Below, one piece after another: positions 5,463 through 8,638 of a stretch of 64,000 nucleotides of DNA. This DNA is from Fulvivirga maritima (GTDB lineage: Bacteria; Bacteroidota; Bacteroidia; Cytophagales; Cyclobacteriaceae), in NCBI RefSeq assembly GCF_021389955.1, contig NZ_CP089980.1, forward strand, positions 3,281,001-3,345,000. Direction: 5' to 3'. The position numbers were made by a program, and so were the translations under genes. Every line of letters starts with the position of its first letter. Position 1 is the stretch's first letter. The notes under the pieces are model-generated. The model ran no database searches and was not told the DNA's origin. It was given only the letters and a program-made list of their open reading frames with translations.

Positions 5463-6149
5463 ATGAGATACCTTCTATTTTTTATATTATTAATGTCCTT
5501 CACTGTGAAAGGGCAGAACCAGGGTGAGTACAATAAATACGAATTCTTAAGAACAGATTATCTGGCCTTTGAGCTGCTAAGTCCTATACATTTTCAGACA
5601 CCTCGGTTTAAGTTGGAGTATAATAGGAGTCTGGCCCGCCGTTGGGATGCTTCTCTTACCTTGGGGTATGGTAATGCTCATCTGGCGCCTAGTTATGTTA
5701 AAGATGAAGACAACTATAGACTTTTTGAGATACGGCATGCCTGGAAGTTTCAACTAATAAGGAAAGGGTCATTTCGCTATTTTCTTTCTTTAGAAGGTTT
5801 TTACATTCTGCATAAAGACACCTACCATGATTCCTATATATATTTTAATGATGAAATTGGGGATTTGTTTTTTAAACAGGCCGATTTTCAAAGAGAAAAG
5901 CTGGGTGTGCTAGCTAAAAGTTCGTTTCACTTCATGTTAGGCAATCGATTAGGCTTAATTCTGTATGGTGGATTAGGAGTGCGAGTGAGAAATAACAAGT
6001 TTTCAAACGTAGTACCCTTAAGTTTATCCATGGAGGAATTTGAAGATGAGTTTGGTTTTAATGTAAAGTATAACCAAGAGGAAGGTAAACAATTCAGTGG
6101 AGACTTTACCGCAGGAGTTAGAGTAAGTTATGTGCTGAAGTTTAGGTGA
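5463..6149 (+). CDS. Conserved hypothetical exported protein, probable outer-membrane barrel
   Basis: The 228-residue product has a short Sec signal (MRYLLFFILLMSFTVKGQ). The rest alternates polar and aromatic residues as in beta strands, for example FKLEYNRSLARRWDASLTLGYG and LGLILYGGLGVRVRNN, and ends in VSYVLKFR with a terminal aromatic-basic strand. This suits a small outer-membrane beta-barrel. No enzyme motif is present and the family was not recognised. It is probably transcribed alone, because the divergent DUF6263 gene lies upstream and a repeat cluster follows. Confidence 0.6.
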   Translation: MRYLLFFILLMSFTVKGQNQGEYNKYEFLRTDYLAFELLSPIHFQTPRFKLEYNRSLARRWDASLTLGYGNAHLAPSYVKDEDNYRLFEIRHAWKFQLIRKGSFRYFLSLEGFYILHKDTYHDSYIYFNDEIGDLFFKQADFQREKLGVLAKSSFHFMLGNRLGLILYGGLGVRVRNNKFSNVVPLSLSMEEFEDEFGFNVKYNQEEGKQFSGDFTAGVRVSYVLKFR

Positions 6150-6182
6150 GAACGTACTATTTGATTATACTTTCACACAATT

Positions 6183-6360
6183 GTCATTTCGACGAAAGGA
6201 GAAATCTATTCCCCTGGAAGAGAAGACTGATGAGGTACTCATGCTTAAACTATTGAGGTTTTCCGTTAAGTATGTCAGCTTGTAGTAGTCAGTTATTATA
6301 TCGATTTACTTTAGGTAGTAGCCCTTAAATACAAAGATTCTCTCCTGGCGTGGAGATGCC
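6183..6360 (+). repeat. Copy A of a 177-bp terminal-inverted-repeat element (diverged)
   Basis: It begins GTCATTTCGACGAAAGGAGA and matches copies B and C through most of its length, including the shared block TTCCGTTAAGTATGTCAGCT. Its right end (AGATTCTCTCCTGGCGTGGA) is a degraded inverted copy of the left end. It ends 12 bp before the stop codon of the GIY-YIG gene. Confidence 0.85.
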
Positions 6361-6372
6361 TTGACTTTTTTA

Positions 6373-6669
6373 TTAAGAGATCACTTCACGGTTTAGAAAG
6401 GTCCAATGTGGATTGAATGATGCAATAAGATTAGCCTTTTTTGCTCTACTCCATTTTTTAATTTCTTTTTCCCTTTCTATAGCTGTCTGAATCGTCGTGT
6501 GTCTCTCATAATAGATCAATTTGTAGCAATAATACCTGCCAGCAAAAGTTTTAGGTTGCCCTCTGTTCTCAAAGTGCTGGAGTAATCTGGTGTGAAGGTC
6601 ATTTGTAACTCCAATATATATTGTTGTTTTCTTTGGGTTAGTGGTGATGTAAACAAAATAATTGCCCAT
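6373..6669 (-). CDS. GIY-YIG nuclease family protein
   Basis: The 98-residue protein consists of a single GIY-YIG catalytic domain. The two signature strands are FVYITT near residue 5 and IYIGVTNDL near residue 17. Arg in the following helix (HTRLLQHF) and the catalytic Glu in AIEREKEIKKW near residue 65 are all present. Stand-alone proteins of this size are common in Bacteroidota, and their role is not established. They are DNA endonucleases by family. Its position is unusual: the gene lies between two directly oriented copies of a 177-bp inverted-repeat element, 12 bp from copy A and 48 bp from copy B. The ATG at 6669 directly precedes the first GIY-YIG strand. It may act on the flanking repeats (inference). 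Confidence 0.88.
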   Translation of the reverse strand: MGNYFVYITTNPKKTTIYIGVTNDLHTRLLQHFENRGQPKTFAGRYYCYKLIYYERHTTIQTAIEREKEIKKWSRAKKANLIASFNPHWTFLNREVIS

Positions 6670-6717
6670 TTATTAATGTAATCATTTCTTAAAGAATATT
6701 CACGTTCTACCACCGTA

Positions 6718-6894
6718 GTCATTTCGACGAAAGGAGAAATCTATTCCCCTCGAAGAGGAGACTGCTTAAGTGTTCATTCTTAACCTATTGAGGTTTTCCG
6801 TTAAGTATGTCAGCTTGTAGAAGTCAGTTATTATATCGAACTACATTAGGTGGCAGTGCTTAAATACATAGATCTCTCCTTACGTCGAGAAGAC
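6718..6894 (+). repeat. Copy B of the 177-bp terminal-inverted-repeat element
   Basis: The terminal 25 bp at each end are inverted copies with 21 of 25 matches. The left end starts GTCATTTCGACGAAAGGAGA; the right end, read on the other strand, starts GTCTTCTCGACGTAAGGAGA. An inner hairpin CCTC-GAA-GAGG lies near the left end. An 18-bp spacer separates it from copy C, giving a 195-bp period. Confidence 0.9.
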
Positions 6895-6912
6895 TAAGGT
6901 CGGTGGTACACA

Positions 6913-7089
6913 GTCATTTCGACGAAAGGAGAAATCTATTCCCCTCGAAGAGGAGACTGATGAGGTATTCATTCTTAAACTATTGAGGTTATCCGTTAAG
7001 TATGTCAGCTTGTAGCAGTCAGTTATTATATCGAATTACATGAGGTGGCAGTGCTTAAATACATAGATCTCTCCTTACGTCGAGAAGAC
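6913..7089 (+). repeat. Copy C of the 177-bp terminal-inverted-repeat element
   Basis: It is nearly identical to copy B, with the same ends and the same 177-bp length. It is followed by the same 18-bp spacer (AAGGTCGGAGGTACACA with small changes). It is directly oriented relative to A and B. Confidence 0.9.
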
Positions 7090-7107
7090 CAAGGTCGGAG
7101 GTACACA

Positions 7108-7154
7108 GTCATTTTACATCAAAGTGAAAACTGTTGAGGTATTCATTTTGATAG
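7108..7154 (+). repeat. Copy D, truncated remnant of the 177-bp element
   Basis: It starts GTCATTTTACATCAAAGTGA exactly one 195-bp period after copy C. About 20 bp are then missing and it resumes with ACTGTTGAGGTATTCATT, matching the internal part of copy C. After that the similarity ends. Confidence 0.65.
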
Positions 7155-7318
7155 TTGGTAAGCAGTAATTCTTCTTGGATTATTCGATCGAGTGATTGTA
7201 TTAATTTTACGTTAATTGCCTATTAAAATTGTAAATAATAATTTATTTATATAAAAATTAGTAGATAAAATTTTAAAGATGTTAAGTTTGGGGAAGTTTT
7301 TACACGATTATCAACCCA

Positions 7319-8638
7319 ATGAATGCAACAGAAAAATTAAAAAAAGGAGGTCTTGGTGTACGCCTATTTGTAGCTTTAATGCTAGTTTCCGCTTTAGGAG
7401 TCTTATTCAAATATCCAGTTCTTCTTGTGCTGGAAATCTTTTTTGGCCGTGCTGCGGAGTATACCAGTACACATTATTCCTATAAACCGGGGCAGTCTGG
7501 TAATTCGATAGAATTTTTCGTTTTGAATGACGATGGATTATATGTGACTATCAATACCATCGCTTCAATTCTAATATCATTTTTATTTTATGTGGGTTTC
7601 TTCTCAGCATTTGCTACTATAATTAATCTACGATCACGTAATTCAAAAGCAGCAAGAAGGGACTTTATTATTACTACGGTAATCTTTGGCCTGTTTATGT
7701 TGCCTCGATTAACGAGCTCTATAGATTCCGTTTTTGCGCTGAATAGGCAGACTCCTTATGTAGTTAAAGATCGTATTTATGATTCTCAAAATAATACTTG
7801 GGAGTTAGGGATGCAGCGATTTATCGGTCATAAAATTACTGACCATGTTGCAAAGGGGGCTGATAGCAGTTTGTTGCTAATAACTAAAATCACGGATAAT
7901 GATAAGGAGCTGATTTTGAGGGATAAGGTGGCTTCAAATGTATTTGGTGGCGAGTATAGATTATTTGGAGATACACTTTGGGTGTTTGATGAAAATTATA
8001 ACTATGCAAAAGTTTTTAATACCACTACTAATGAAATACTGGTAAATCATCCTAATGAGTTGCTGTCTTTTGTTTCTTACCCAGGAAATTCCGAAGTGAA
8101 TTCGCTAAGAACCTCTAGTTGCTGTGGTAGAGAAAACTGTTTGTACCTCACTATGAAGGATGGAAGAGAGCTATATTTAATGATGACTGAAGGTGCCATC
8201 CTTGATAAAGAACCTTATATCCGTGAGGATCGAAAATATTACCTGAAAAACCTGAATTCAAATCAGTTACAGTTTGCCTCTTATGATAGAGATGAGCTAA
8301 CAGCAGCATGGGGTAAAAGGGTATTTTTAGATGCTGAAATTTTATTGTACAATGATGATCTAGTTATTATCCGTCATAAACCTGATATGAATGAAGATTC
8401 ACAATACTTGGTGGGAGCATATAGCATTGATAATGCTCAAGAGCTTTGGTTAATCAATGAGGCAGAAATTGACTTTCTAGGTAAAATTTATGGAAGTTTG
8501 ACTGTAGAGGCCTATTTTGTTGGAGATGAAGTGAAGGTTAACTATAAAGATGCATTTAGTTTTAGAGGTACTATAAACATAGATGCACAGGGAAAAGCAA
8601 GTACTAATGATGAGAATTATGATTTTATGCGATTGTAA
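7319..8638 (+). CDS. Membrane-anchored protein of unknown function
   Basis: The family was not recognised in this 439-residue protein. The N-terminal part has three hydrophobic segments: VRLFVALMLVSALGVLFKY, ITFASILISFLFYVGFF-like around residue 85, and FIITTVIFGLFMLP near residue 120. A long non-membrane region follows (about residues 150-439). It is made of short repeating strand-turn units such as YRLFGDTLWVFDENYNYAKVF and ILLYNDDLVIIRH, which suggest a beta-propeller-like fold. A CCGRENC cluster near residue 265 could bind metal or form disulfides. The ATG at 7319 precedes a Lys-rich start; the weak AAGGAGG match lies inside the coding region. A strong terminator follows, so the gene is probably monocistronic. 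Confidence 0.6.
   Translation: MNATEKLKKGGLGVRLFVALMLVSALGVLFKYPVLLVLEIFFGRAAEYTSTHYSYKPGQSGNSIEFFVLNDDGLYVTINTIASILISFLFYVGFFSAFATIINLRSRNSKAARRDFIITTVIFGLFMLPRLTSSIDSVFALNRQTPYVVKDRIYDSQNNTWELGMQRFIGHKITDHVAKGADSSLLLITKITDNDKELILRDKVASNVFGGEYRLFGDTLWVFDENYNYAKVFNTTTNEILVNHPNELLSFVSYPGNSEVNSLRTSSCCGRENCLYLTMKDGRELYLMMTEGAILDKEPYIREDRKYYLKNLNSNQLQFASYDRDELTAAWGKRVFLDAEILLYNDDLVIIRHKPDMNEDSQYLVGAYSIDNAQELWLINEAEIDFLGKIYGSLTVEAYFVGDEVKVNYKDAFSFRGTINIDAQGKASTNDENYDFMRL

Follow-up and report, generated by a model that had tools for sequence, protein, structure and literature searches.

The systems closest to the locus described here are a nuclease and repeat pair of Neisseria and a widespread class of bacterial hairpin repeats. 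Reportedly, Ssn proteins, GIY-YIG nucleases that cut single-stranded DNA site-specifically, were first described in Neisseria; their repeat, NTS, is said to be present in hundreds of copies and to modulate transformation, and thousands of homologues are said to exist, several of them tested in vitro. The hairpin repeats are the CGTC-tagged REPs, which the excerpted text of a survey describes as having an unpaired GTC, CGTC, TGTC or CCTC tag at one end and a stem that starts with AT and shows compensatory changes (Di Nocera et al., 2013; PMC3733652). According to the same excerpts, the stems of the four published CGTC families are 8-9 bp long with loops of 4-5 nt, Bacteroidetes are among the five phyla represented, dimers with the tags outside predominate, the Neisseria dRS3 repeat is a CGTC-1 REP, and CGTC-tagged REPs ‘apparently lack a dedicated transposase’ (PMC3733652). 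Our analysis of a locus in Fulvivirga maritima suggests that a small GIY-YIG nuclease is the dedicated partner of a widespread bacterial REP class to which none had been assigned.

We analyzed a 64,000-nt stretch of the F. maritima genome, positions 3,281,001-3,345,000, here called the window. Its initial annotation had described three directly oriented 177-bp elements and a truncated fourth with 25-bp terminal inverted repeats and 18-bp spacers, and a single-domain GIY-YIG gene lying between the first two, 12 bp from one and 48 bp from the other. All of this is borne out by the coordinates and by Pfam (Table 1). The three elements are 177 or 178 bp long and share one orientation, and the period from B to C is 195 bp at 94%. 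Element A matches at 75% ungapped, or at 90% over 174 bp when gaps are allowed; its right end has one extra base and matches at 16 of 25 positions at best, compared with 21 of 25 in B and C. The fourth copy consists of a 29-bp match at 83%. The 12-bp distance between the gene and A counts A's extra base, and becomes 13 bp when measured from 6359.

Table 1. Positions, in window coordinates, of the repeat array and the nuclease gene.
Feature	Position	Strand	Remarks
Element A, REP pair with outward tags	6183..6360	+	left REP 6183-6207 intact, right REP ~6336-6360 degraded
GIY-YIG nuclease gene, 98 aa, single-domain	6373..6669	-	PF01541, 59.8 bits; dN/dS 0.052
Element B	6718..6894	+	left REP 6718-6742, right REP 6870-6894, 21/25 matching as inverted repeats
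Spacer B-C, 18 bp	6895..6912	+	part of joint hairpin with adjoining REPs
Element C, recent tandem copy of B (94%)	6913..7089	+	
Spacer C-D, 18 bp	7090..7107	+	
Fourth copy, truncated and diverged	7108..7150	+	right boundary approximate

As a general unit, the 177-bp element did not survive a search of the genome. Full-length copies are confined to the window array, and other arrays have other bodies and periods (195 to ~580 bp), so that the recurring unit is the 25-bp end. The same confinement weighs against a MITE reading of the element, as does the observation that the strict REP matches at the loci of 30 relatives have the REP form in common and not the body (bodies were compared with the genus-mate G006 alone). 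Inverted ends are present, as in a MITE, and a plain, unsystematic reading of the window sequence turned up no target-site duplication. The initial annotation had also proposed searching the full genome for the left end, and copies do occur elsewhere: at up to three mismatches, the 25-nt left end has 43 sites in this 6.39-Mb single-contig genome and the reversed pattern has none, indicating that the pattern is there more often than by chance. Exact copies of the 25-mer are found in three places only, all inside the window. The left-end sites fall largely in arrays of differing body and period, with periods of 195, 224, ~345, 425, 477 and ~575 bp.

Several of these arrays can be described individually. 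One (L038, G000:C1:1801852-1803570) has eight tandem REP pairs with outward tags at a period of ~224 bp, with ~150 bp from left to right REP and 126 in the last pair. The longest array by span that we noticed in the genome, at 7.5-12.1 kb of L044 (G000:C1:4906000-4925000), has nine REP sites 569-581 bp apart. Another, at ~8.7-10.2 kb of L037 (G000:C1:40000-59000), is interrupted by ~1.5 kb with an apparent transposase gene, which by eye we take to be IS110-like. In the window itself, an ORF of 439 aa (7319-8638) matches nothing in Pfam at E 0.001, nor anything in 14 further genomes of the genus.

The 25-nt end takes the form GTC-ATNNN-loop-N'N'N'AT-CT, with a 5-bp stem and a 10-nt loop in the window REP. 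Every window copy has the GTC tag, and the base before it varies. The stem shows covariation: among 35 distinct variants from this genome, picked by similarity rather than pairing, the bases are complementary in 86% of pair cells, double changes occur in 17, and covariation scores 0.264 compared with 0.119. On each of these measures 0 of 500 shuffles are as high, and structures slid along the sequence score worse than the proposed stem. The covariation is carried by two of the five stem pairs, a count equalled or exceeded in 261 of 500 shuffles, and the further pair types seen in the stem are reached by 40 of 500. A set of 32 variants, made up of 31 of the 35 and one from G006, gave an agreeing result. 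By folding energy, one 25-nt REP on its own forms a weak hairpin, no better than shuffles (z 0.19). The 177-bp element folds better than shuffles (z -3.2), and the junction of B's right REP, the 18-bp spacer and C's left REP folds as one hairpin (z -4.2). No RNA family matched window positions 5500-8000 at gathering score.

Further analysis of the gene between A and B showed that PF01541 is its sole Pfam match, well above the cut-off of 22.6 bits, and that it has all of the residues invariant in a 22-sequence alignment. Its orthologue in G006 is 92% identical and occupies the equivalent place between the two equivalent elements (A-gene-B). Between the two genes dS is 0.75 and dN is 0.039, and the resulting dN/dS of 0.052 indicates that the protein is maintained by purifying selection. 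The left REP is conserved as well, its left 29 bp being identical in all five element copies across the two species. The orthologous bodies match at 95 of 126 positions for A and 85 of 126 for B (67-75% identity, 25-33% differing), and if the left end changed as fast as the better-conserved body, the chance of all 29 positions staying the same would be ~3e-4 for one pair. Within a genome, bodies match at 119 of 126 positions in G006 and at 106 of 124 between A and B here; that copies within a genome are more alike than orthologous copies points to within-genome homogenization. Directly after element B in G006 there is also a 48-bp stretch with palindromic ends, GTCATTTCAA...TTGAAATGAC (L166, 10149-10197), possibly a fused REP pair.

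Stand-alone GIY-YIG genes above the Pfam cut-off number two in this genome, alongside two long proteins. Both stand-alone genes match the window protein, and the second, at 3,871,508, likewise lies in a REP array; the flanks of the two long genes contain no REP match. In each case, as also in G006, the gene occupies the stretch between two direct copies of a REP pair; these copies measure 174 bp for the window gene, 125 bp (within a 466-bp repeat) for the second gene and 214 bp for the gene in G006. We set aside a defence reading, for which PADLOC matches were weak (best E 0.0007), and a phage origin, for which 50,697 phage records were searched with the relative in L081 and yielded nothing at E 1e-10.

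We scored strict REPs, defined as GTCAT plus an exactly complementary 5-nt stem, around 80 named loci. A single query gave at least 579 matches, of which these are the top 80; they come from 17 phylum labels, and with 45 from Bacteroidota they are not a random sample. Nuclease and REP are physically associated at these loci: a strict REP lies within 600 bp in 72 of 80, and on both sides in 51. Five permuted tags matched 4-10 of the 80 loci, or 4-11 when counted slightly differently, so some of the 72 are chance matches. REP density is 6.1/kb at 0-150 bp and 0.16-0.28/kb beyond 600 bp, compared with 0-0.29/kb for the permuted tags. Requiring a C after the stem leaves 68 loci in 16 phylum labels, against 0-2 loci for permuted tags. 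By eye, the eight strict misses have longer-loop or altered-tag versions, some on one side only. The contrast persists in non-coding DNA alone (5.2 against 0.96/kb; permuted tags 0.13 and 0.10).

Loci of 30 relatives, one per genome and the best-scoring 30 of the 51 genomes with a nuclease match, show the same pattern. A strict REP lies within 600 bp in 25 of them and on both sides in 15, with a density of 4.55/kb at 0-300 bp that has dropped to 0.25/kb at 1.2-1.5 kb; three permuted tags gave 0-0.24/kb and matched 1, 1 and 2 of the 30 loci. A further 40 loci had a strict REP in 30, so that it is absent at 5 of 30 and 10 of 40. No REP-like flanks were seen at three stand-alone GIY-YIG genes taken from genomes without a nuclease match, and in 300 kb of the F. 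maritima genome away from arrays (fifteen 20-kb stretches) there were 29 strict matches, or 0.097/kb, none REP-like on reading. Plasmid-borne homologues in Sinorhizobium meliloti, Spirosoma and Planktothrix have REPs alongside. The homologue on Planktothrix agardhii plasmid p1 (L212), with REPs on both sides, sits between an MmeI-type restriction enzyme gene and the DISARM gene drmA.

The REPs around the gene are also oriented. When the gene is set to the plus strand, the REP closest to it upstream is likewise on the plus strand in 51 of 61 cases, and the closest one downstream is on the minus strand in 47 of 58. Outward tags are found in 34 of the 48 loci with REPs on both sides, meaning that the gene lies inside one REP pair and replaces the non-coding body. 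The arrangement in the window, in which the tags face a gene located between two REP pairs, is rarer (4 of 48).

The initial annotation had proposed testing whether repeat number goes with this nuclease across genomes. Using one pattern that covers three stem classes, we compared 51 genomes with the nuclease and 47 without, and found that the two correlate: median REP matches are 5.7/Mb with the nuclease and 2.4/Mb without (p 1.8e-8; the genomes are not phylogenetically independent), and within the same family 6.4/Mb (39 genomes) and 3.3/Mb (21 genomes; p 1.7e-5). The reversed pattern gives 0.95 with and 1.11 without (p 0.38), and REP matches follow nuclease gene number with a Spearman coefficient of 0.62. 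An excess over 4/Mb is found in 28 of the 51 genomes with the nuclease and in 2 of the 47 without, leaving 23 gene-bearing genomes that have no such excess by the one pattern used. There are exceptions in both directions, making the link strong and not strict. The two genomes without the nuclease that show an excess, G057 and G093 (4.4 and 8.4/Mb over control), encode GIY-YIG proteins of the long kind only. REPs can thus be abundant where a stand-alone nuclease is absent; another mobilizer or loss of the nuclease is possible there. G027 has three nuclease matches, 28 Y1-transposase matches and 3 REP matches against 11 for the control, and G087, at exactly 4.0/Mb, has a stand-alone GIY-YIG gene whose flanks are not REP-like.

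REP sequence and nuclease sequence co-diverge. A Mantel test drew on 102 loci, a set from which 8 of the relatives' 30 had already been removed (six of the 8 lacked a strict REP), and used those 93 that have a REP no more than 400 bp away. Nuclease and REP distances are weakly correlated (rho 0.17, p 0.001), and between nearest nuclease neighbors the REP distance is 0.168, compared with a mean of 0.310. In a comparison of 71 loci, we scored the 40 that have a REP and a same-genome paralogue also having one. Their REPs lie at a distance of 0.264 from those beside the closest nuclease in a different genome, against 0.343 from those of same-genome paralogues (p 0.007), and paralogues' REPs are no nearer than unrelated REPs (0.366; p 0.31). 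With the 6 loci removed whose counterpart is >85% identical, the values are 0.296 and 0.354 (p 0.038, n=34), indicating that REPs follow the nuclease more than the genome. As regards horizontal spread, the tree, in which 59 of 100 inner branches are open, has 24 label changes against a minimum of 16, only a moderate excess.

Flank enrichment, genome correlation and the tracking of the nuclease by REP type strongly support the parallel that the initial annotation drew with REP elements and their RAYT transposases, here with a different nuclease; the 177-bp element fell away as the unit, and movement by the nuclease is hypothetical. Recognition of the REP by the nuclease is well supported. As judged from sequence, we give a probability of roughly 0.7 to the reading that the nuclease recognizes and nicks its cognate REP; that it cleaves, which strand or structure it cuts and what role it plays in copying or moving the repeats we infer. 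In the mechanism that we propose, the gene would encode a small REP-specific GIY-YIG nuclease and the array of REP pairs would be its cognate sites. The protein would recognize the 25-nt hairpin end, with its GTC tag and 5-bp ATNNN stem, in single-stranded or extruded form and would nick it. Repair and recombination at the cut sites could then multiply REP pairs in tandem and homogenize them, and could keep the nuclease gene, or copy it, between REP pairs. The 177-bp elements would be non-coding, REPIN-like REP pairs, and the gene the coding partner between two of them. Homogenized tandem copies and a gene between direct REP pairs fit break-induced recombination at REP sites. Several observations count against the proposal: gene-bearing genomes that show no REP excess, REP-rich genomes with long GIY-YIG proteins only, loci at which a strict REP is absent, the weakness of the Mantel correlation, the minority arrangement seen in the window, covariation in two stem pairs of five, the weak fold of a lone REP, and the outcome of the empty-site search given below. 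That the activity of the nuclease multiplies REPs is a tentative proposal, and it is rather unlikely that nucleases of this clade are dedicated mobilizing enzymes of GTC-tagged REPs throughout Bacteria.

The likeliest alternative is an Ssn-like regulator. By cutting single-stranded DNA at REPs, when such DNA is incoming or exposed, it would tune natural transformation and recombination, the repeats themselves spreading by ordinary duplication and slippage. We consider this a serious contender, at somewhat less than even odds. The Neisseria Ssn literature points that way, and a Neisseria gonorrhoeae homologue, which we presume to be Ssn, has 39 of 92 residues identical (42%) to the window nuclease and sits among 16 dRS3-type REPs in 6.3 kb, in a record with 191 copies and none of the reversed pattern. 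(This record, NZ_CP119140.1, is listed as a plasmid in PLSDB; it is chromosome-sized at 2.17 Mb and has 12 annotated features.) Near-identical tandem units also resemble the products of slippage or unequal exchange. Pure regulation, however, would not demand that REPs cluster at the gene and track it across genomes.

A selfish homing gene is a more doubtful account. Here the REPs would be docking sites in repeats of other origin, and the gene a guest that enters arrays by break repair. Such a gene could explain why both stand-alone genes of this genome and the one in G006 lie between direct REP-pair repeats, and it is consistent with purifying selection on the nuclease, with its similarity, a weak one, to homing endonucleases, and with the existence of REP-rich genomes lacking the nuclease. 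The prevalence of genes within a single outward-tagged REP pair (34 of 48 loci) and the co-variation of REP sequence with nuclease identity argue against it. A search for empty sites in the genus, which bears on the mechanism that we propose, yielded neither movement nor a clean empty site among the genomes compared: the gene downstream of the array had no match in 14 other genus genomes, and the upstream gene is present in G006, with the A-gene-B arrangement, and has a homologue at 45% in G004. That homologue has a single chance-like match in its 1.5-kb flanks and is too distant to count as an empty site.

That Y1 (RAYT-like) transposases move the REPs while the nuclease is a bystander is very improbable. 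The genome does have four intact copies of one Y1 family, which we take to be IS200-like, and several other Y1 genes, presumably of RAYT-like length. At 30 relatives' Y1 loci, strict matches lie within 600 bp in only 3, none REP-like, at the chance level of 0.12/kb (58 of 98 relatives were searched, and four shorter loci have an assumed gene position that may be off). The 11 Y1 loci of this genome are likewise at chance level and none is REP-like (two overlap, and one has sub-cut-off matches only), so that Y1 transposases as mobilizer are largely refuted. Finally, a small gene that merely happened to fall in a repeat-rich intergenic region, as gene and repeats are both intergenic, is refuted to a negligible probability by the non-coding control, the genome-level correlation and the 300 kb away from arrays.

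If the nuclease does mobilize REPs, it would represent a second REP-mobilizing system, independent of RAYT/HUH transposases, in which REP(+)-body-REP(-) would be the non-autonomous form and REP(+)-nuclease-REP(-) the autonomous one. Because the target can be read from the flanks of the gene, repeat-targeting nucleases of readable specificity would follow. The spread of CGTC-type REPs, a question left open in the excerpts of the 2013 survey, can now be put to a direct test using a protein of 98 residues and oligonucleotides of 25 nt, as the nuclease is found among such REPs in 16 phylum labels, tracks their number and sequence, and is strongly selected.

Compared with the CGTC-tagged REPs as excerpted from that survey, the window REP is alike in its GTC tag at one end, its AT-first stem with compensatory changes, its short unpaired tail and its tags-outside dimers. 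It differs in its 5-bp stem and 10-nt loop (8-9 bp and 4-5 nt in the published families), in the variable base before GTC, in its tandem arrays and in its associated nuclease, of which the excerpts name none (PMC3733652). Given the stem and loop lengths, the window REP resembles the CGTC superfamily and is assigned to none of its four families. Titles and abstract openings revealed no paper about a GIY-YIG partnership with REP, RAYT, REPIN or dRS3, and in the partial text of PMC12306157 (2025) neither ‘nuclease’ nor ‘RAYT’ occurs at the start of a word.

In REP-RAYT systems (REPtron/REPIN), as here, a dedicated nuclease gene is bordered by short hairpin repeats, and the type of repeat corresponds to the sequence of the gene. 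There the enzyme is an HUH/Y1 transposase and the tag GTAG; here they are a GIY-YIG nuclease, which by Pfam lacks a Y1_Tnp domain and so is not a RAYT, and GTC. UPF0213 proteins are single-domain GIY-YIG proteins as well and provide the only solved-structure matches, 1zg2 and 1ywl (E 0.004 and 0.31), and their similarity to the window nuclease is weak. Ssn and NTS share with our locus a single-domain GIY-YIG protein and a cognate repeat around the gene and through the genome. The window locus differs in having 177-bp tandem REP pairs and another REP sequence, with a putative cleavage specificity. If Ssn and NTS are as reported, the window locus would be a Bacteroidota relative of the Ssn/NTS pair, and the novelty would lie in its connection with GTC-type REPs in general, in the arrangement as REP pairs and in the question of mobilization.
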